In this document: positions 308 to 14,064 of the stretch, piece by piece
Numbering within the stretch: the stretch's first letter is position 1
Layout: every line of letters begins with the position of its first letter
Origin: a bacterium
GTDB lineage: Bacteria > Actinomycetota > Acidimicrobiia > Spongiisociales > JAENVV01
Assembly (NCBI GenBank): GCA_024641305.1
Contig: JAHEDI010000030.1
Coordinates: 1 to 40,191, forward strand
DNA: 40,191 bases
Direction: 5' to 3'
Program-made: the position numbers and the translations under genes
The notes under the pieces: model-generated
What the model was told of the DNA's origin: nothing
Databases searched by the model: none
Seen by the model: only the letters and a program-made list of their open reading frames with translations

Positions 308-1261
308 TTACTTCTCGCGGACTCCACGGAGAACGACGTCTATGGGTGTGGTTGCCAGATCGTCATCCAGGTTTTGCACGTATTCGTACCCGAAGCGCCC
401 CTTGATGCAGAGGTGGCCGTCGGTGACCGAATGGTCCATGGGTGAGGTCACCTTGACGATGCGGTTGTCCTGGGTGTGCAGTTCCAGGTTGCAGCCCACT
501 CCGCAGTAGGAGCAGACAGTCCGGGTGACGTTCTGTTCATCCTCGTCCCAAACGCCGGCCTGACGTAGTTCGTACTCGGAGCGGAACATGAGGGCTCCGG
601 TGGGGCAGACGCCGATGCAGTTCCCGCAGAAGACACAGGCCGAGTCGGTGAGGCCGACGTCGAATTCGGTGGAGATCCGGGCATCAAAGCCGCGACCGGC
701 GACGGCGATGGCGAACGTGTTCTGAGCGTCCTCGCCGCAGGCCTCGACGCACTTGTAACACAGGATGCATTTGGAGTAGTCCCGCATGTACAGCCCGTTG
801 TCGATCTTGGCCGGCTGGGCAACCGTCTCGGTTACCTCTCCGCTGGCGGCGGAGTGATGTCCGGCATGGCGTTGATCGCGGTCTCCGGTTGGGGGAGCGG
901 CCGGCCCATACCGCGAAGGATCGGCGCCGTAGGTTTCCATCCACCCTGACAGGGTTGAGTCTGCCGTCGACAGATCGACGGACGAGGCGAGGAATTCGAG
1001 GACCATCTTGCGAGAGTGCTTGACCCGGTCGGTCTCGGTTTGCACGACCATGCCTTCTTCGGCGGTCCGGGAACAGGCCGGCACCAAGGTGCGACTGCCT
1101 TCGACCTCGACCACGCATACCCGGCAGGCGTTGACCGGGGTGAGATTCTCTAAATAACAGAGCGTCGGTGTGTCAATCTTCTCCGAACGACAGGCATCAA
1201 GCAGGGTGGCTCCATCCGGAACGGAAACTGCCTGGCCGTTGATCGTGACAGTGACGCTCAT
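308..1261 (-). CDS. Formate dehydrogenase iron-sulfur subunit (detached N-terminal half of FdsA-type alpha subunit)
   Basis: This 317-aa electron-transfer subunit corresponds to the N-terminal part of NAD-linked formate dehydrogenase alpha subunits. Visible modules in order are a plant-type [2Fe-2S] domain with Cys35, 46, 49 and 63, two 4Fe-4S ferredoxin motifs (CILCYKCVEAC at 165-175; CVFCGNCIGVCP at 209-220), and the molybdopterin-oxidoreductase 4Fe-4S cap (CSYCGVGC at 250-257 with LCIKG at 284-288). The protein stops just after the cap, where a normal FdsA would run into its Mo-binding domain; that domain is encoded at 3034-4908. The His-Cys3 motif usually present after the [2Fe-2S] domain is absent; residues 92-118 contain no Cys or His. 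The start overlaps the NuoEF gene stop by ATGA, so translation is probably coupled. It is the last gene of the fhs-fdh operon. Expected location is the cytoplasm, between the Mo site and the flavin subunit. Confidence 0.88.
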   Translation of the reverse strand: MSVTVTINGQAVSVPDGATLLDACRSEKIDTPTLCYLENLTPVNACRVCVVEVEGSRTLVPACSRTAEEGMVVQTETDRVKHSRKMVLEFLASSVDLSTADSTLSGWMETYGADPSRYGPAAPPTGDRDQRHAGHHSAASGEVTETVAQPAKIDNGLYMRDYSKCILCYKCVEACGEDAQNTFAIAVAGRGFDARISTEFDVGLTDSACVFCGNCIGVCPTGALMFRSEYELRQAGVWDEDEQNVTRTVCSYCGVGCNLELHTQDNRIVKVTSPMDHSVTDGHLCIKGRFGYEYVQNLDDDLATTPIDVVLRGVREK

Positions 1262-3015
1262 ATGAGTCCTAGGTCGATAAGGGAACGTACTGCAGTCGCG
1301 GCTGTGTGACCGAGGCCACAGATCGACGCATCTTTCATGGCGACGTCGATGTCGTCGATGAGTTGGAGATCGAGGTCACCGTGACCGTTTAGTTTCCGAG
1401 CGAGGCTCTCTTCAATCCGCGCGGTACCGACTCGGCACGGAACGCACTGGCCACACGACTCATCTCGAAAGAACTGGGCGAGCCGGCGGGCAACGTCCGT
1501 CATGTCGGTCGAAGTGTCGAACACCATGATGACCCCCGAACCGAGAGACACTCCAGCGGCCCGTGAGCCTTCAAACGTTAGAGGTATGTCGAGTTGGTCG
1601 CCGGTAACGAACGAACCAGCTGCTCCGCCAAGCAAGATCGCCTGGATGTCCCCGGTAGCCCCTCCCGCCAGGTCGAGGAGGTCTCCGAGCGTTGCCCCGA
1701 ACGCCACCTCGTAGACGCCCGGCCTGGCAATGGCGCCCGATAGGCAAAAGAGCTTCGGTCCCGTCGAATCGGCCGTCCCCACCTGTGCCCAGGTCTCGCC
1801 ACCGTGCTCGACGATGTCGATGACATTCACGAGCGTCTCAACATTGTTGATGACCGTTGGCTTACCAAACAGGCCCGACACGGTGGGGAATGGGGGCTTG
1901 TTGCGAGGTTCACCACGCTTGCCTTCGATCGAATTCATGAGGGCGGTTTCTTCACCGCAGATGTAGGCGCCCTGTCCGCGCCGGACTTCTAGATCGAACG
2001 CGAAACCGTGACCGCCGACGTCTGAGCCGAGCAGGCCGGCCGCATAGGCTTCGCGGATCGCCGCCCGCAGGCGGGCCGTGGCGAGCGGATACTCACCGCG
2101 AATGTAGATGTAGCCCCGGGTGGCACCGGTGGCGAAACCGGCGATCGTCATTGCCTCGACGAGCGCGTAGGGGTTCGATTCCATGAGGTCGCGATCTTTG
2201 AACGTACCCGGCTCTGACTCGTCAGCGTTGCAGATGACGTACTTGCAGTCGGAAGCAATCCCCGCGACGGCCTCCCATTTGATCCCGGCCGGGAACGCCG
2301 CCCCACCGCGTCCCCGGAGATTGGAAGCCTTGATTTCGGCGATGGTGCGATCCGGGCCCTGCGAAGCGGCGATAGCCAAAGCAACGTACCCGCCGCCCTG
2401 TCGATAGGCCTCCAGCGACGTGCCGCCCGGTCGCCCGAGCAGCGTGGTCGAGGCCGTCGAGGCCGTCGTAGGTTCGATGAGTCCATCAACCACGGCCAAC
2501 ACCGAAGCCGGAGTGGCCGGAGCGATCACCAGGTCTTCCTGGCCGGCACGTTGGACGAACACAGCAGGCGCCCGATCACATTGTCCGAGACAAGGGCTAG
2601 TCATCCATGTGGCGGGACCATCTGCTGATCGAGGCTCGCCAAAAACGGTCCGAAGAGCCCCGATAATCTCGACCGCACCTCGATCACGACAGCAAATGTC
2701 GTCGCACACGTGCACCACGATGGGCGCCAGGGGAGTGGTTGATATCAGTGCATAGAAGCTCGCCACCCCGTACGCCTCGGCGGGCGGCACGATCAGGGTG
2801 GAACAGATGTAGTCGAGGGCTCCTGGGCTTACCCAGCCGATCTCGGACTGAACGGCATCGAGGGCCGGGAGCAGCAGATGGCGAAGCTGTTGGGAGCGGT
2901 GCAGCCCGGAAAAGGCCAGTCTTCCATCAAGCGGGTTGCCATCCCACCCGGCCGGGAGCGAATCAAGGAGACCATCCACCGCGCCTCGCTCTGCTTCGGT
3001 CGCGGCCTTGTTCAT
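1258..3015 (-). CDS. NAD-linked formate dehydrogenase flavin subunit, NuoE-NuoF fusion
   Basis: This 585-aa protein fuses a NuoE-like thioredoxin-fold [2Fe-2S] domain to a NuoF-like NAD(H)/FMN domain. The NuoE part shows the C-x4-C and C-x3-C ligands (Cys104, Cys109, Cys142, Cys146). The NuoF part shows the glycine-rich LRGRGGAAFPAG nucleotide site, the CNADESEPGTFKDR segment, the AYICGEETAL segment, and near the C-terminus the 4Fe-4S motif SCGQCVPCR with a distant ICGLG cysteine. It should pass electrons between NAD(H) and the iron-sulfur subunit. It starts 18 bp after the catalytic subunit and ends overlapping the iron-sulfur subunit by 4 bp, so the three are one transcription unit. FdsG-FdsB and HndA-HndC are usually separate chains; fused EF forms are known in hydrogenases and formate dehydrogenases. 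A hydrogenase role is unlikely because the neighbouring catalytic subunit is a molybdenum enzyme. Confidence 0.9.
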   Translation of the reverse strand: MNKAATEAERGAVDGLLDSLPAGWDGNPLDGRLAFSGLHRSQQLRHLLLPALDAVQSEIGWVSPGALDYICSTLIVPPAEAYGVASFYALISTTPLAPIVVHVCDDICCRDRGAVEIIGALRTVFGEPRSADGPATWMTSPCLGQCDRAPAVFVQRAGQEDLVIAPATPASVLAVVDGLIEPTTASTASTTLLGRPGGTSLEAYRQGGGYVALAIAASQGPDRTIAEIKASNLRGRGGAAFPAGIKWEAVAGIASDCKYVICNADESEPGTFKDRDLMESNPYALVEAMTIAGFATGATRGYIYIRGEYPLATARLRAAIREAYAAGLLGSDVGGHGFAFDLEVRRGQGAYICGEETALMNSIEGKRGEPRNKPPFPTVSGLFGKPTVINNVETLVNVIDIVEHGGETWAQVGTADSTGPKLFCLSGAIARPGVYEVAFGATLGDLLDLAGGATGDIQAILLGGAAGSFVTGDQLDIPLTFEGSRAAGVSLGSGVIMVFDTSTDMTDVARRLAQFFRDESCGQCVPCRVGTARIEESLARKLNGHGDLDLQLIDDIDVAMKDASICGLGHTAATAVRSLIDLGLI

Positions 3016-3033: not shown

Positions 3034-4908
3034 CTACACCTTTTCGATTCGGATGGCGGTCGCCTTGAATTCTGCGGTTCCAGACTTGGGGTCCCAGGCG
3101 TCGAGCGTGAGCTGGTTGACGTCTGCCTCGTCCGGATGGTGGAACGTCATGAAGGTGAGGCCGGGCCGAAGTGAGTCGGTAAAGATGACCGGCACTTCGA
3201 TGGCGCCTCGACGGGAGCTGATCTTGACTGTGTCGCCCTCCCGAATGTCCCAGTTGGTTCCGTCTTCCTCGCAGATCTCCAGGACGGCGCCTTTGCGAAT
3301 GGGGGAGCGGTAGCCACCTGACTGGACGCCGGTGTTGTACGAGTCCAGGGCTCGCCCGGTCGTAAGGCGAATCGGAAAGTCCTCTGAGAGCGGATCGACT
3401 GGCGGCACCCATTGCACGGGGATAAATGGTGCTGGTCCGCGCGGAGGAAGAACTTCGTCCCACAGCCAGGAATGAAGAAAGAGCGTGCCGGGATGATCGA
3501 GCGATGGGCAGGGCCACTGCAAGCCACCTTCGCTTTCAAGACGCTCATAGGACATCCCGGCGTGCATGGGAGATAGCAGGCGCAGCTCGTCCCAGACTTG
3601 CTCGGCGGTGGGATAACCCCAGCCGTGACCCATCTTCTCAGCCAGTGCGCTCAGGATGTCGAGGTCGTCGCGGGCTTGGCCAGGAGGTTCGATGGCCTTG
3701 CGGATCCGCTGGACCCGTCGCTCAGATGACGTGGAGGTTCCGTCACTCTCAGCCCATCCGGCGGCCGCAGGGAACACGACGTCGGCCAGTTCGGCGGTGG
3801 CGGTGAGGAAGATGTCCTGAACCACGATGAAAGCGAGGTCGCCAAGGAGCTTGCGGACGTGAGCCGTGTCGGCTTCCGATTGGGCGGGGTTCTCCCCAAT
3901 CACATAGAGAGCGGTCAGTTCGCCGGCTTCCATCGCTTCGAACATGAGTGAGATGTGTTTGCCCGGTTCGGCCGGGACCTCGACCCCCCATATCGCTTCG
4001 AACTTACCGCGGGCTTGGACGTCTTCGATGTCCTGGAAGCCGGGCAGTTTATTGGGCAAGGCTCCCATATCCCCGCCGCCCTGGACATTGTTTTGTCCCC
4101 GGATCGGCACCAGGCCGGAGCCGTAGCGTCCTACGTGGCCCGTCAGCAGAGCCAGGCTGATGAGGGCGATCACGTTGTCGGTGCCGTTCTGGTGTTCGGT
4201 GATGCCGAGCGTCCAGCAGATCTGAGCGGTTTCCGCGGTCGCGTAATCGTGGGCGAGTTGTTTGATGATCTCGGCCGGTACTCCGGTGACCTGCTCGCCC
4301 CGCTCCAGGGTCCATTCCTCAACACCGGCTTTGTAAGCCTCGAAGTCCATGGTCGAGTGGGCCACGAACGCTTCGTTGACAAGCCCGGCGGCGATGATCT
4401 CGCGGCCGATGGTGTTGGCGAGTGCGATGTCTGATCCGACGTCGATGCCCAACCATACGTCGGCGAATTTGGCCGACGATGTGAGACGCGGATCGACCGC
4501 ATACATCTTGGCGCCGTTACGGACGCCCTTGAGTAGGTGATGGAAGAAGATCGGATGGGCGTTCCGCGCGTTTGAACCCCACAGAACAATGAGATCGGTG
4601 GTTTCGATTTCTTCGTACGACGAAGTTCCTCCGCCCGCTCCGAGAACAGCCGCCAGACCGGCGACCGAAGGAGCGTGTCAGGTTCGGTTACACGAGTCGA
4701 CGTTGTTGGAACCCATGACGACCCTGGCGAACTTCTGGGCCATGAAGTTCATTTCGTTAGTCGCTTTAGAACACGAGAACATCCCGTAGGACGTCCCGGT
4801 GTGTTCTGCCAACCCGACCGCGGCCGCATCGAGGGCTTCGTCCCAGGTAGCCGGCTCCAAAACACCGTTGCGCCGGACCAGGGGAGTGGTCAAACGTGTC
4901 TTTTTCAT
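3034..4908 (-). CDS. fdhA: Formate dehydrogenase catalytic subunit, selenocysteine-containing (Mo/W-bis-PGD)
   Basis: Read through one in-frame TGA, this is a 624-aa molybdopterin oxidoreductase that interconverts formate and CO2. Upstream of the TGA are the typical MGSNNVDSCNRT residues; directly after come HAPSVAGLAAVLG and later GSNARNAHPIFFHHLLKG, as in formate dehydrogenases, where the residue between T and H is Sec or Cys. Sec is therefore residue 77. The C-terminus has a molybdopterin-dinucleotide-binding domain (from about residue 510, RLTTGRALDSYNTG onward). The N-terminal 4Fe-4S cap is missing and is encoded in the gene at 308-1261. The start at 4908 is chosen because AGGAGGTG sits 2 bases before the ATG and because homologous sequence (RLTTPL) begins there. 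Without readthrough only 76 residues would be made. Selenocysteine synthesis genes must lie elsewhere; none are in the window. It is the third gene of the fhs operon. Confidence 0.93.
4636..4675 (-). promoter_or_regulatory. Bacterial SECIS hairpin for SelB-dependent UGA readthrough
   Basis: On the transcribed strand, starting 2 bases after the UGA, CGCUCC (4675-4670) pairs perfectly with GGAGCG (4641-4636). An inner stem GUCGCC (4665-4660) pairs with GGCGGC (4654-4649) and closes an apical GGUCU loop (4659-4655). The loop lies 18 bases after the UGA. The same loop sequence and spacing occur in E. coli fdhF, where SelB binds. The asymmetric internal loop is UUCG against UGUUCUC. The element lies wholly inside the coding sequence. 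Pairing was worked out by hand. Confidence 0.88.
4678..4680 (-). other. fdhA: Recoded UGA selenocysteine codon of fdhA (Sec77)
   Basis: The codon reads TGA on the minus strand between ACC (Thr76) and CAC (His78). The reading frame continues open for 547 further sense codons with unbroken formate dehydrogenase homology. In the family this exact position is the Sec/Cys ligand of the molybdenum. A correctly placed SECIS hairpin follows, so this is recoding and not a nonsense mutation. Confidence 0.93.
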
Positions 4909-4942: not shown

Positions 4943-5302
4943 TTAGACCATGCCTGTAGAGGGTTGTCTCGAAACACAGAATTCGTTTCCGTCCGGATCG
5001 GCCAGGACCGTCAAAGCGTATGACGGTTTGTCGACTGCTGATACCACCGAACCGCCGAGAGCGATGACCCGCTCGATGAGTTCAGTCGGGTCCCCGCTGG
5101 TGAGGTCGAAATGGGCCCGATTCTTGACGACCTTCGGATCGGGAACGATCTGAAGCACGAGATGGATATCGTCGACGTCGAAAAAGACAAACTCGTCGAA
5201 TTTGAACGCCACATCCACCTCGAACACCCCTGACCAAAACGCCGCCGCGCGTTCTCCGTCGGAGACGTCGAGGATGATGCCGCTGATACGGGGCGCCGCC
5301 AT
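4943..5302 (-). CDS. VOC-superfamily (glyoxalase/bleomycin-resistance fold) protein
   Basis: This 119-aa protein has the single-module VOC pattern: an N-terminal GIILDVSDGERAAAFWSGVF segment with the typical AAxFW helix, a middle HLVLQIVPDP strand, an AHFDL strand, and a C-terminal VLADPDGNEFCV segment matching the family's DPxGNxF motif. Residues that could be metal ligands (His in HLVLQ, His in AHFDL, Glu in GNEF) are present. The substrate cannot be predicted; VOC proteins include glyoxalases, isomerases, dioxygenases and binding proteins. It starts 3 bp after the fhs stop and ends 34 bp before fdhA, so it is almost certainly co-transcribed with the formate genes. A role in their one-carbon chemistry is possible but is only an inference from position. 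Confidence 0.8.
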   Translation of the reverse strand: MAAPRISGIILDVSDGERAAAFWSGVFEVDVAFKFDEFVFFDVDDIHLVLQIVPDPKVVKNRAHFDLTSGDPTELIERVIALGGSVVSAVDKPSYALTVLADPDGNEFCVSRQPSTGMV

Positions 5303-5305
5303 GGG

Positions 5306-7063
5306 TTAGAACAGGCCGACGATGTTGCCATTTTCGTCGATGTCGACGTTCATGAACGCCGGCGTCGCACCGAGGCCCGGCATGGTTCGCATCTCGCCAA
5401 GCAGCGGATAGATGAACCCGGCGCCAACGGACGCCCGCACCTCACGGACCGGCACGGTGAAGCCCTTCGGAGAGCCCTTGAGGTTGGGGTCGTGGCTGAT
5501 CGAAAGGTGCGTTTTGGCCATACAAATCGGCAAATACCCGTACCCGGCCTGCTCAAATTCAGAGATCTGTTTTTCGGCAAGCGGCGAATACTCCACTCCG
5601 GCGGCGCCGTAGATCTCCGTAGCGATGATCTCGATCTTTTCCTTGATCGATCGGTCGAGCGGGTAGAGGAATTTGAAGTCTGATGGGGAGTCGGCCGCCG
5701 CAACGACCGCCTTCGCCAACTCGACGGCCCCGTCGCCGCCATCTGGGTGATGAGAGCTGGTCACGGCGGCGAAGGCACCGTACTCCATGGCGGTTTCCTT
5801 GATGAGCTGAATCTCATGTTTAGTGTCGGTTGGGAAGACGTTGACCGCCACAACCACCGGGACACCGAACTTCCTCACGTTCTCGATGTGGGTAATGAGG
5901 TTGGCGAGGCCGGCGCGTAGCAGTGGCAGGTTCTCTTCGGTGTACGCCTTGTCCAGTGGCCGACCCGCCACGACCTTCGGACCGCCGCCGTGTGTTTTCA
6001 GTGCTCGGACGGTGGCCACCAGAACGGCGGCGTCAGGCTTCAGGCCGGATACTCGACACTTGATGTCAAAGAACTTCTCAGCACCCATGTCGGCTCCGAA
6101 ACCCGACTCGGTCACAACGTAATCACCCAGGTGGAGGGCGACCCGGTCGGCCAGGATCGAGCTGTTGCCGTGGGCGATGTTGGCGAATGGCCCGGCGTGG
6201 ACAAACGCGGCCTGGCCCTCAAGCGTCTGCATGATGGTGGGGTGCAAGGTCTCTTTCATGAGGACCGTCACAGCCCCGGCCACACCCAGATCTTCGAGTG
6301 TGATCGGATTACCCGCCTTGCTGCGACCCACGACCACCCTTCCGCAACGCTCCCGGAGGTTACGAAGCGCTTCGGCGTAATTGGAACCATCGACGAGGGC
6401 CAGAATCGCCATCAGTTCGGAGGCCACGGTGATGTCGTAGCCGGTCTCGCGGGGCCTACCCTCGAGTTCGCCGCCCAACCCGACGATGATGTTGCGTAGC
6501 GCCCGGTCGTTCATGTCGACTACTCGCCGCCACGAGATCTGGTTCGGGTCCATGCCCAGTCGTTTGAGGCCGAGGTTGCTGAGCTGGTCGTCGGTCATCC
6601 GGCCTTCGTGGAACCAGCGGGCGTCGATGGCGGCCGCCACCAGATTGTGAGCCGCGGTAATCGCGTGGATGTCTCCCGTGAGATGGAGGTTGAATTCTTC
6701 CATCGGGATGACCTGGGAGTAGCCGCCGCCGGCCGCCCCGCCCTTGATCCCGAAGGTTGGTCCCATTGACGGTTGGCGGATGGCTGCGATGGCAGTTTTG
6801 CCGATCTTGCCGAGTCCCTGGGTGAGTCCGATCGTGGTGGTGGTTTTGCCTTCACCGAGCGGGGTGGGCGTGATGGCGGTTACGTCGATGTACTTGCCTC
6901 GTGGTTGTCCACCGATTCGTTTGAGGATGTCGAGATGAATCTTTGCTTTCGTCGCCCCTTGGGGAATCAACTCATCGGGATGGATGCCGATGGACTCGGC
7001 GATGGCAATGATCGGCTGTGGAGTCGCTGCTTGGGCGATGTCCAGGTCTGATGGAAAAGGCAT
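5306..7063 (-). CDS. fhs: Formate-tetrahydrofolate ligase
   Basis: This 585-aa enzyme makes 10-formyl-THF from formate, THF and ATP in the cytoplasm. It carries the P-loop-like ATP site TPTPLGEGKTTTTIG (residues 66-79), the family signature FANIAHGNSS, and the typical C-terminal ending GNIVGLF. The length is near the usual 555-560 aa with a slightly longer start. I chose the ATG at 7063 because AGGAG lies 3 bases upstream and homology starts there; the longer open frame upstream runs into the divergent promoter region. It is the first gene of a minus-strand operon that continues into the VOC protein and the selenocysteine formate dehydrogenase. This pairs formate production or oxidation with folate activation, as in the methyl branch of the Wood-Ljungdahl pathway or the reductive glycine pathway. 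A purely assimilatory or serine-oxidation role is equally possible from this sequence. Confidence 0.95.
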   Translation of the reverse strand: MPFPSDLDIAQAATPQPIIAIAESIGIHPDELIPQGATKAKIHLDILKRIGGQPRGKYIDVTAITPTPLGEGKTTTTIGLTQGLGKIGKTAIAAIRQPSMGPTFGIKGGAAGGGYSQVIPMEEFNLHLTGDIHAITAAHNLVAAAIDARWFHEGRMTDDQLSNLGLKRLGMDPNQISWRRVVDMNDRALRNIIVGLGGELEGRPRETGYDITVASELMAILALVDGSNYAEALRNLRERCGRVVVGRSKAGNPITLEDLGVAGAVTVLMKETLHPTIMQTLEGQAAFVHAGPFANIAHGNSSILADRVALHLGDYVVTESGFGADMGAEKFFDIKCRVSGLKPDAAVLVATVRALKTHGGGPKVVAGRPLDKAYTEENLPLLRAGLANLITHIENVRKFGVPVVVAVNVFPTDTKHEIQLIKETAMEYGAFAAVTSSHHPDGGDGAVELAKAVVAAADSPSDFKFLYPLDRSIKEKIEIIATEIYGAAGVEYSPLAEKQISEFEQAGYGYLPICMAKTHLSISHDPNLKGSPKGFTVPVREVRASVGAGFIYPLLGEMRTMPGLGATPAFMNVDIDENGNIVGLF

Positions 7064-13140: not shown

Positions 13141-14064
13141 TTAGTCAGGTGGCCAGGTGGGTCGGAGTGACTTGGCAAACGAAACATTGGCCGTGTGGTC
13201 AACCATCCAGCCGTATCGCCCCGAACGCTGTAACAGCAACGATCGGGTCATCGTCGGATCGGCGGTGCGGTGTTTTACGACTGTGAGTTTGAGTGTCGAA
13301 GTTTCCGTATCGGTCCAGGCATCTTCATCCGGAGCCAGAGCTAGTACGACGTCCGAGTAGTGCGCCAGGTCTTCGGGTACTTCATGTATGACCCTTGGTA
13401 GCTGGGGTAGTACCTCGGTTAGGCGAGCCGCGAATACTAGAGCGAACTTCATCTCGTGGGCAGCGTCGCGCAATGCCAGGATTCGATCCCGGCTGGGCTG
13501 ACCCTCATCGAGAGTCCCGGCCACGAACTCTTCGTATCCGTCGATAATCACGAGGGGAGCCGCGAAGTCGTTGGTCATGTTTACGGCGGCCACTGCCTCA
13601 ACAATCGCCGACGGTTCGCGGGTTGTGATCGGGTACAGGGCAAGGCGGGCAACCTGGTCCATCGCCGCTCGAACCCGGACCATCTGCTTCTCGTTCAGGT
13701 GCCCCGCCCGGAGGCGCAACTCGTCGACATTCGCCCGGACGGCCACGAACCGCTCGACCAATTGGCTCGCGGGCCGTTGACAAGATACATAAATGACGGG
13801 ATGACCGGCCCGCAATGCCGAGTTGGTAATGGCCAACAGCAGGCTGCTGGTCCCGGACCCAACCGCCCCGACCACCGACACCAGGTCTCCGGGGAACAAG
13901 CCGCCGAGCCGGGTATCCCAGGCATCAAACCCGGTTGGAATGGCGGTGGCGGTGTCCTTGCGCCATTCCAAGTCGTCTCCGAGCGCCTCGATGAGTCCTT
14001 TCATCGGCTGGCTTGTCGTGATCGTTGCCCACTCGGCTGTTGTTAACCCCTTGCCTGTTTCCAT
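13141..14064 (-). CDS. DnaB-like (SF4) RecA-fold protein with degenerate Walker A, SOS-boxed
   Basis: This 307-aa protein resembles the C-terminal motor domain of replicative helicase DnaB and lacks the DnaB N-terminal domain. Matching landmarks are TGFDAWDTRLGGLFPGDLVS (44-63), the ELRLRAGHLNEKQM helix (115-128, DnaB LHRLRTGxL), Walker B LVIID (171-175), DLAHYSDVVLALAPDED (232-248, DnaB IEQDADVVLFLYRDE) and VVKHRTADPT (262-271, DnaB AKQRNGPTG). Two catalytic positions are changed: the Walker A reads GAVGSGTSS, so the lysine is Thr72, and the catalytic Glu after strand 2 (DnaB SLEMS) is Gln96 in SCQRP. ATP hydrolysis is therefore doubtful. A perfect LexA box lies 42 bp upstream. KaiC/RadA-like ATPases or ImuA-like RecA relatives are alternatives, but DnaB similarity is better. 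A regulatory or accessory role in damaged-fork replication is inference. Confidence 0.8.
   Translation of the reverse strand: METGKGLTTAEWATITTSQPMKGLIEALGDDLEWRKDTATAIPTGFDAWDTRLGGLFPGDLVSVVGAVGSGTSSLLLAITNSALRAGHPVIYVSCQRPASQLVERFVAVRANVDELRLRAGHLNEKQMVRVRAAMDQVARLALYPITTREPSAIVEAVAAVNMTNDFAAPLVIIDGYEEFVAGTLDEGQPSRDRILALRDAAHEMKFALVFAARLTEVLPQLPRVIHEVPEDLAHYSDVVLALAPDEDAWTDTETSTLKLTVVKHRTADPTMTRSLLLQRSGRYGWMVDHTANVSFAKSLRPTWPPD

Follow-up and report, generated by a model that had tools for sequence, protein, structure and literature searches.

A predicted selenoprotein formate dehydrogenase with a divided FdsA-like chain in the actinobacterial class Acidimicrobiia

The window analysed here, a whole stretch of 40,191 nucleotides, carries on its minus strand a group of genes for a formate dehydrogenase (FDH) with a predicted selenocysteine (Sec) in its catalytic subunit. 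Read in the direction of transcription, these are a formate-tetrahydrofolate ligase gene, fhs (5306..7063, 585 aa, PF01268 at 839 bits); a glyoxalase/VOC-family gene (4943..5302, 119 aa), which lies between fhs and fdhA and is conserved in close relatives only; the gene for the FdhA-type catalytic subunit (3034..4908, 624 aa), with a Shine-Dalgarno-like GAGGAGGTG 5′ of its ATG; a NuoE-NuoF fusion encoding a 585-aa diaphorase subunit (1258..3015) with thioredoxin-like 2Fe-2S, FMN/NADH-binding and 4Fe-4S domains, which ends in an ordinary TGA stop; and the gene for a 317-aa NuoG-N/FdsA-N-like electron-transfer subunit (308..1261), whose start overlaps the NuoE-F stop (ATGA). The fhs gene, found upstream of the FDH genes also in the related loci L009, L010, L014 and L078, is likely to form one transcription unit with them. 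Elsewhere in the window, 13141-14064 encodes a 307-aa protein with a DnaB-helicase C-terminal-like domain only, and no recognised replication genes lie near it in the window.

When TGA is translated as Sec, the frame 4908..3034 contains one internal stop alone, the TGA at 4680-4678 (minus strand, codon 77), in the context ...NVDSCNRT-U-HAPSVAGL..., where residue 77 occupies the metal-ligand position. The sequence-only reading had located this frame and its single active-site TGA (CNRT-U-HAPS) correctly, in a gene that lies on the minus strand. Its interpretation as a selenoprotein FDH is likewise supported, but it overlooked that the chain is missing its Fe4S4 domain, found instead on another operon gene. 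Pfam recognises only the molybdopterin and dinucleotide-binding domains (PF00384 and PF01568) in the 624-aa subunit and no PF04879, the Fe4S4 domain; in 79/79 loci no Fe4S4 Cys motif precedes the catalytic domain in frame.

The 317-aa subunit, by contrast, matches PF13510, Fer4 and, at residues 245-297 of its C-terminus, PF04879, and has a 2Fe-2S site, two ferredoxin-type 4Fe-4S sites and a C-terminal Molybdop_Fe4S4 domain. It aligns to residues 25-308 of Rhodobacter capsulatus FdsA (958 aa), and the Sec protein to residues 308-931. Judged from these alignments, the FdsA chain is divided where its Fe4S4 domain meets the Mo domain, at about residue 308, with the NuoEF gene placed between the two halves. 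The gene order catalytic subunit, NuoEF, FeS subunit is kept in all 63 loci with enough sequence. The ligands of clusters A1, A2, A3 and A5 are also constant, all 16 Cys being invariant in 64/64 sequences. In the same 64 sequences the His(Cys)3 set of FdsA cluster A4 (H117, C121, C124, C130) is absent throughout, and the C124 column is deleted in all; in the R. capsulatus enzyme this cluster sits at the dimer interface (PMC7171172). This split, A4-less three-gene layout is the part that a specialist might not expect. One locus of the same order (L109, G117:C31:1500-9500) encodes a fused FdsA-like alpha subunit, 44% identical, with an in-frame TGA and a NuoE-F neighbour, apparently without the His(Cys)3 motif; this fused form is possibly an outgroup or precursor of the split form.

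Against the Fdh-alpha model TIGR01591, the catalytic subunit scores 649.9 bits over model positions 50-672 of 672, under the cut-off of 666.25. Model positions 1-49, which it lacks, are encoded on another gene, hence the narrow shortfall; the 317-aa subunit supplies them, with a match of 57.1 bits to model 1-52. It could still be argued that the protein shares the fold and the Sec residue but has another MopB-family activity, or that it is not NAD-linked: the score does lie below the cut-off, a NasC-type nitrate reductase model also matches the subunit (414 bits), and the FDH assignment is made from sequence. We consider this very unlikely, given that the best solved relatives of the subunit are FdhF of HDCR, an F420-linked FDH, FDH-H and FdsA; that the Sec-His ligand pair and RGQ arginine motif are present (CNRT-U-H ... 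PIRGQNNVQGG, a motif class as in PMC8808070); that the genome encodes FdhD (contig C11); and that Fhs adjoins, together with NuoE-F and NuoG-N partners, the operon's subunits matching FdsA, NuoE and NuoF and providing a NuoE/NuoF-type diaphorase. In addition, selenium-dependent formate removal has been published for a strain whose own enzyme matches in subunit sizes (PMC7176365).

Turning to the recoding site of the putative FDH, homology to relatives extends on both sides of the codon 77 TGA. Compared with L009, codons 1-76 differ by 18 synonymous changes and 1 nonsynonymous change, and codons 78-624 by 143 and 23, respectively. Without recoding, the first start past the TGA is the ATG at 4506, which opens a 490-aa ORF; the first 134 codons are lost, as had been anticipated for an ordinary gene caller, and automatic annotation would leave the enzyme without its active site. 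That the TGA is a true stop, in a gene that is broken or yields two separate products, might be suggested by the standard code, by this in-frame ATG and by the use of TGA as the normal stop of the adjoining NuoE-F gene. However, the codons from the TGA to ATG 4506 are conserved with mostly synonymous changes, as are those 5′ of the TGA, a 490-aa product would be without the metal ligand, and the TGA, the hairpin described below and the Sec machinery co-occur across several phyla, which makes a true stop highly improbable.

The predicted SECIS element is a hairpin at 4675-4636 on the minus strand, with the apical loop GGUCU at 4659-4655. It folds in RNAfold as the sequence-only reading had described, at -23.2 kcal/mol (z = -3.1; 1/200 shuffles equally stable). 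That reading had given it two perfect 6-bp stems: the lower stem is indeed formed by 6 perfect pairs (CGCUCC/GGAGCG), but the 6 pairs of the upper stem include one U-G wobble, and RNAfold lengthens this stem to 8 pairs. The loop starts 18 nt past the UGA, the spacing that had been likened to that of Escherichia coli fdhF, and the fdhF sequence checked in annotated genomes has the identical spacing. No Rfam family matched anywhere in the window at the gathering threshold; in a permissive search, SECIS_3 aligned end to end at 21.5 bits against a gathering score of 63.

Because the TGA, hairpin and loop are found again at 59 homologous loci, the arrangement is far beyond chance. The loop codons GGT CTG are invariant in 52/52 distinct TGA sequences, in surroundings whose third-position freedom is otherwise normal; in Cys homologues the Gly-Leu at the loop site is spelled GGG, GGA or GGC followed by CTG or CTC. 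Covariation was assessed over 47 distinct 48-nt elements and 11 pairs: 96.5% of the pair cells are standard, slid controls all pair far worse, and two-sided changes occur in 3/11 pairs, namely 9-42, 18-30 and 20-28. In L053, a compensatory change from C18-G30 to G18-C30 is achieved through two synonymous changes. The outer-stem pair 9-42 is broken in 14/47 sequences, and the hairpins of some relatives, such as L021 from Pseudonocardia dioxanivorans CB1190, an isolate with the Sec form, are not the minimum free energy fold when folded alone. A covariance model (R1) built from the FDH elements gave the TGA copies searched 62.7-70.1 bits, against 16.8-39.8 bits for Cys copies. In the window's own genome it matched only the 4675-4636 site, and no second FDH-type SECIS was found by this model, whose reach is limited to FDH-like elements and leaves outside unlike ones such as that of selD.

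We compared 80 loci encoding relatives of 61-96% identity, drawn from named genomes, 79 of which cover the residue-77 site; in the remaining one, L080, the match begins past the site, and its Cys label in the tree reflects these missing data alone, so it is excluded from the Cys loci. The codon at residue 77 is TGA in 59/79 homologues and TGC or TGT (Cys) in 20/79, so that the Cys homologues to which comparison had been recommended do exist and could be aligned at the Sec site. SelB was detected in 15/16 tested named genomes with the TGA form and 0/20 with the Cys form; a true insertion of Sec would be expected to leave just this pattern, SelB being lost alongside the change to Cys. In a quick tree, whose within-group branching is poorly supported, the Cys forms of Streptomyces, Nocardiopsis, Streptomonospora and Glycomyces are nested within Sec forms, with the Sec-bearing Allonocardiopsis beside them, a placement compatible with one or two Sec-to-Cys replacements. 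Such Sec/Cys pairs of one enzyme, found in related actinomycetes, lend themselves well to a comparison of the two residues within a single scaffold.

The window's own genome is a 3.42-Mb draft of 93 contigs, 97.1% complete. It carries a selA-selB gene pair on contig C77, and a tRNA-Sec with anticodon UCA (76.3 bits) and selD on contig C60; the predicted presence of SelA, SelB, SelC and SelD was therefore borne out in full. The selD frame itself (L097, contig C60, minus strand) contains an in-frame TGA at 2400-2398, where the catalytic residue is encoded (SHGAG-U-ACK); behind it lies a stable hairpin (z -3.0), a predicted SECIS that differs from that of the FDH. Because of this TGA and hairpin, at least two selenoproteins, the FDH and SelD, are predicted in the genome.

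Across the class, SelB scored above the cut-off in 96/198 genomes, including 44/50 in the same order, and the suggestion that selenoproteins are uncommon in many actinobacterial lineages does not hold for this one. Wherever an FDH of at least 60% identity covers the site in these 198 genomes, it has exactly one TGA. SelB is present in 49/52 genomes with a TGA-FDH versus 47/146 without (Fisher p 5.5e-16, kinship ignored); two of the three TGA-FDH genomes without SelB are <90% complete, and tRNA-Sec is found in 2/3. The class Acidimicrobiia is thus shown to have the selenocysteine trait, which would be used for formate oxidation. A second, weaker tRNA-Sec-like gene (52.8-56.3 bits, above the gathering score) stands beside the main one in five genomes of the order (G013, G062, G074, G082, G192). 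Separately, an apparent occurrence of tRNA-Sec without SelB in genomes of ~1 Mb (group f12) proved no clear anomaly, as a laxer rerun on five of them recovered full-length SelB-like proteins below the curated cut-off in at least four.

It might also be supposed that the UGA is read through as a residue other than Sec (Cys or Trp, by near-cognate decoding or a reassigned code). Homologues do accept Cys at the residue-77 position, and selC-independent selenocysteine incorporation into E. coli FDHs is reported (PMC3636253). Yet UGA terminates the neighbouring gene, tRNA-Sec(UCA), SelA, SelB and SelD are all encoded in the genome, and the loss of SelB coincides exactly with a Cys codon at the site; such a reading is exceedingly improbable. 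That the TGA is a misread or misassembled Cys codon (TGC/TGT) has next to no probability, for although Cys homologues exist at 20 loci and the genome is a 93-contig draft, the error is refuted by independent genomes, the same TGA recurring in independent assemblies of the genus (G046, G148) and at 59 homologous loci, while the SECIS loop accompanies TGA only and the genome contains sel genes. For practical purposes, a sequencing error, a pseudogene and a plain stop can all be ruled out, and the TGA-encoded selenocysteine FDH is confirmed as real and well supported, Sec insertion itself being a prediction from these patterns.

UGA decoding and the enzyme class are thus strongly supported. The operon very probably encodes a cytoplasmic, NAD(P)+-linked, Mo- or W-dependent three-subunit FDH with a selenoprotein catalytic subunit, for which we infer Sec insertion, metal, cofactor specificity, stoichiometry and direction; domain homology points to NAD+ as the acceptor. 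On meeting the UGA at codon 77, the ribosome would insert selenocysteine with the help of SelB, which, with Sec-tRNA(UCA), would bind the hairpin just 3′. Sec77 would then ligate the metal of the bis-MGD cofactor, with His78 and the RGQ motif's conserved Arg as neighbours. The electrons released from formate would pass to the [4Fe-4S] cluster of the Fe4S4 domain (A1), supplied by the separate 317-aa subunit, and from there through that subunit's two ferredoxin-type [4Fe-4S] clusters, possibly with its [2Fe-2S] cluster, to the FMN of NuoE-F and on to NAD(P)+. The linkage to fhs suggests a role in C1 disposal or assimilation: together with the neighbouring formate-THF ligase, the enzyme would probably remove formate arising from one-carbon metabolism as CO2, with formation of NADH, or feed formate into C1-THF.

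The locus may further represent a distinct and widespread subclass of NAD(P)+-linked FDHs, found in Actinomycetota, Chloroflexota/Dormibacterota, Acidobacteriota and others and marked by a cut in FdsA that separates the Fe4S4 from the Mo domain, by a changed gene order and by loss of the dimer-interface cluster A4, with Sec as the ancestral state, replaced by Cys together with SelB loss in Streptomyces and Nocardiopsis relatives; we put the chances of this reading at about even. If it is true, a different polypeptide carries the cluster nearest the Mo/Sec site, and the protomers may lack the electronic connection seen between those of FdsABGD. A Mo/Sec domain that is naturally separate from its nearest Fe-S cluster would help to establish by experiment which clusters the transfer of electrons to NAD+ and the coupling of the dimer require. 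In a search of openly readable papers, limited to their main texts, we found no described split FdsA in actinobacteria and no description of the split, A4-less anatomy.

Several known enzymes share parts of this design. The E. coli FdhF (FDH-H) gene has the same UGA-CAC context and a GGUCU loop 18 nt past the UGA, and its catalytic domain aligns with that of the present enzyme at 457.6 bits over query residues 4-623. In FdhF, however, the Fe4S4 domain lies within one chain, and the electrons are passed to hydrogenase 3, not to a diaphorase. Methylobacterium extorquens FDH1 (PDB 7vw6) is NAD+-dependent and likewise has a fused NuoE-F beta subunit, close in size to the one here (572 aa), but its alpha subunit is a one-piece chain of 989 aa, it is recorded as a tungsten enzyme, and its records carry no selenoprotein description.

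The soluble NAD+-dependent FdsABGD of R. capsulatus and Cupriavidus (PDB 6tg9) has all the cofactor domains seen here, including the FdsA-like N-terminal and catalytic parts and an FdsB/FdsG-like diaphorase, and the FDH ligand motif. Its FdsA is one 958-aa chain with Cys386, whereas here the residue is a predicted Sec, the chain is divided between two genes at ~308 with the diaphorase gene between them, the diaphorase halves are fused and the A4 His(Cys)3 motif is gone; no FdsD was noticed among the genes of the operon. As read from these alignments, the split chain and the missing A4 motif depart consistently from what defines an FdsABG enzyme. The enzyme appears FdsABG-like in its working, but it should not be filed as a standard FdsABG enzyme because it lacks two defining features, the one-chain alpha subunit and the cluster A4 His-Cys3.

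FDH-alpha is the most widespread bacterial selenoprotein, followed by SelD (PMC5029168; PMC13188914), and Sec-to-Cys changes have been listed in both FdhA and SelD (PMC13188914). The closest published parallel comes from Actinomycetospora chiangmaiensis, another actinobacterium, in which three Sec-FDHs were predicted and their SECIS elements sought by bSECISearch (PMC7176365). The cytoplasmic FDH3 of strain DSM 45062 consists there of FdhA3 (640 aa, WP_084681743.1), FdhB3 (614 aa, WP_018332443.1) and FdhC3 (316 aa, WP_018332444.1); all three proteins were detected and induced, and selenite was needed for formate removal. FDH3 thus resembles the present enzyme in having a cytoplasmic Sec alpha subunit with a predicted SECIS and three subunits near-equal in size to those found here (624, 585 and 317 aa). 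It differs in belonging to another class, and the part of the account available to us does not mention a split of the Fe4S4 domain. Because the subunit sizes match and Pseudonocardia relatives, members of the same family (Pseudonocardiaceae), are among the loci compared here, FDH3 is the probable published counterpart, as judged by sizes, description and family relatives only. No bacterial selenoprotein family is commoner than the one to which the enzyme predicted at this locus belongs, and an equivalent from another actinobacterium has already been published (PMC7176365).
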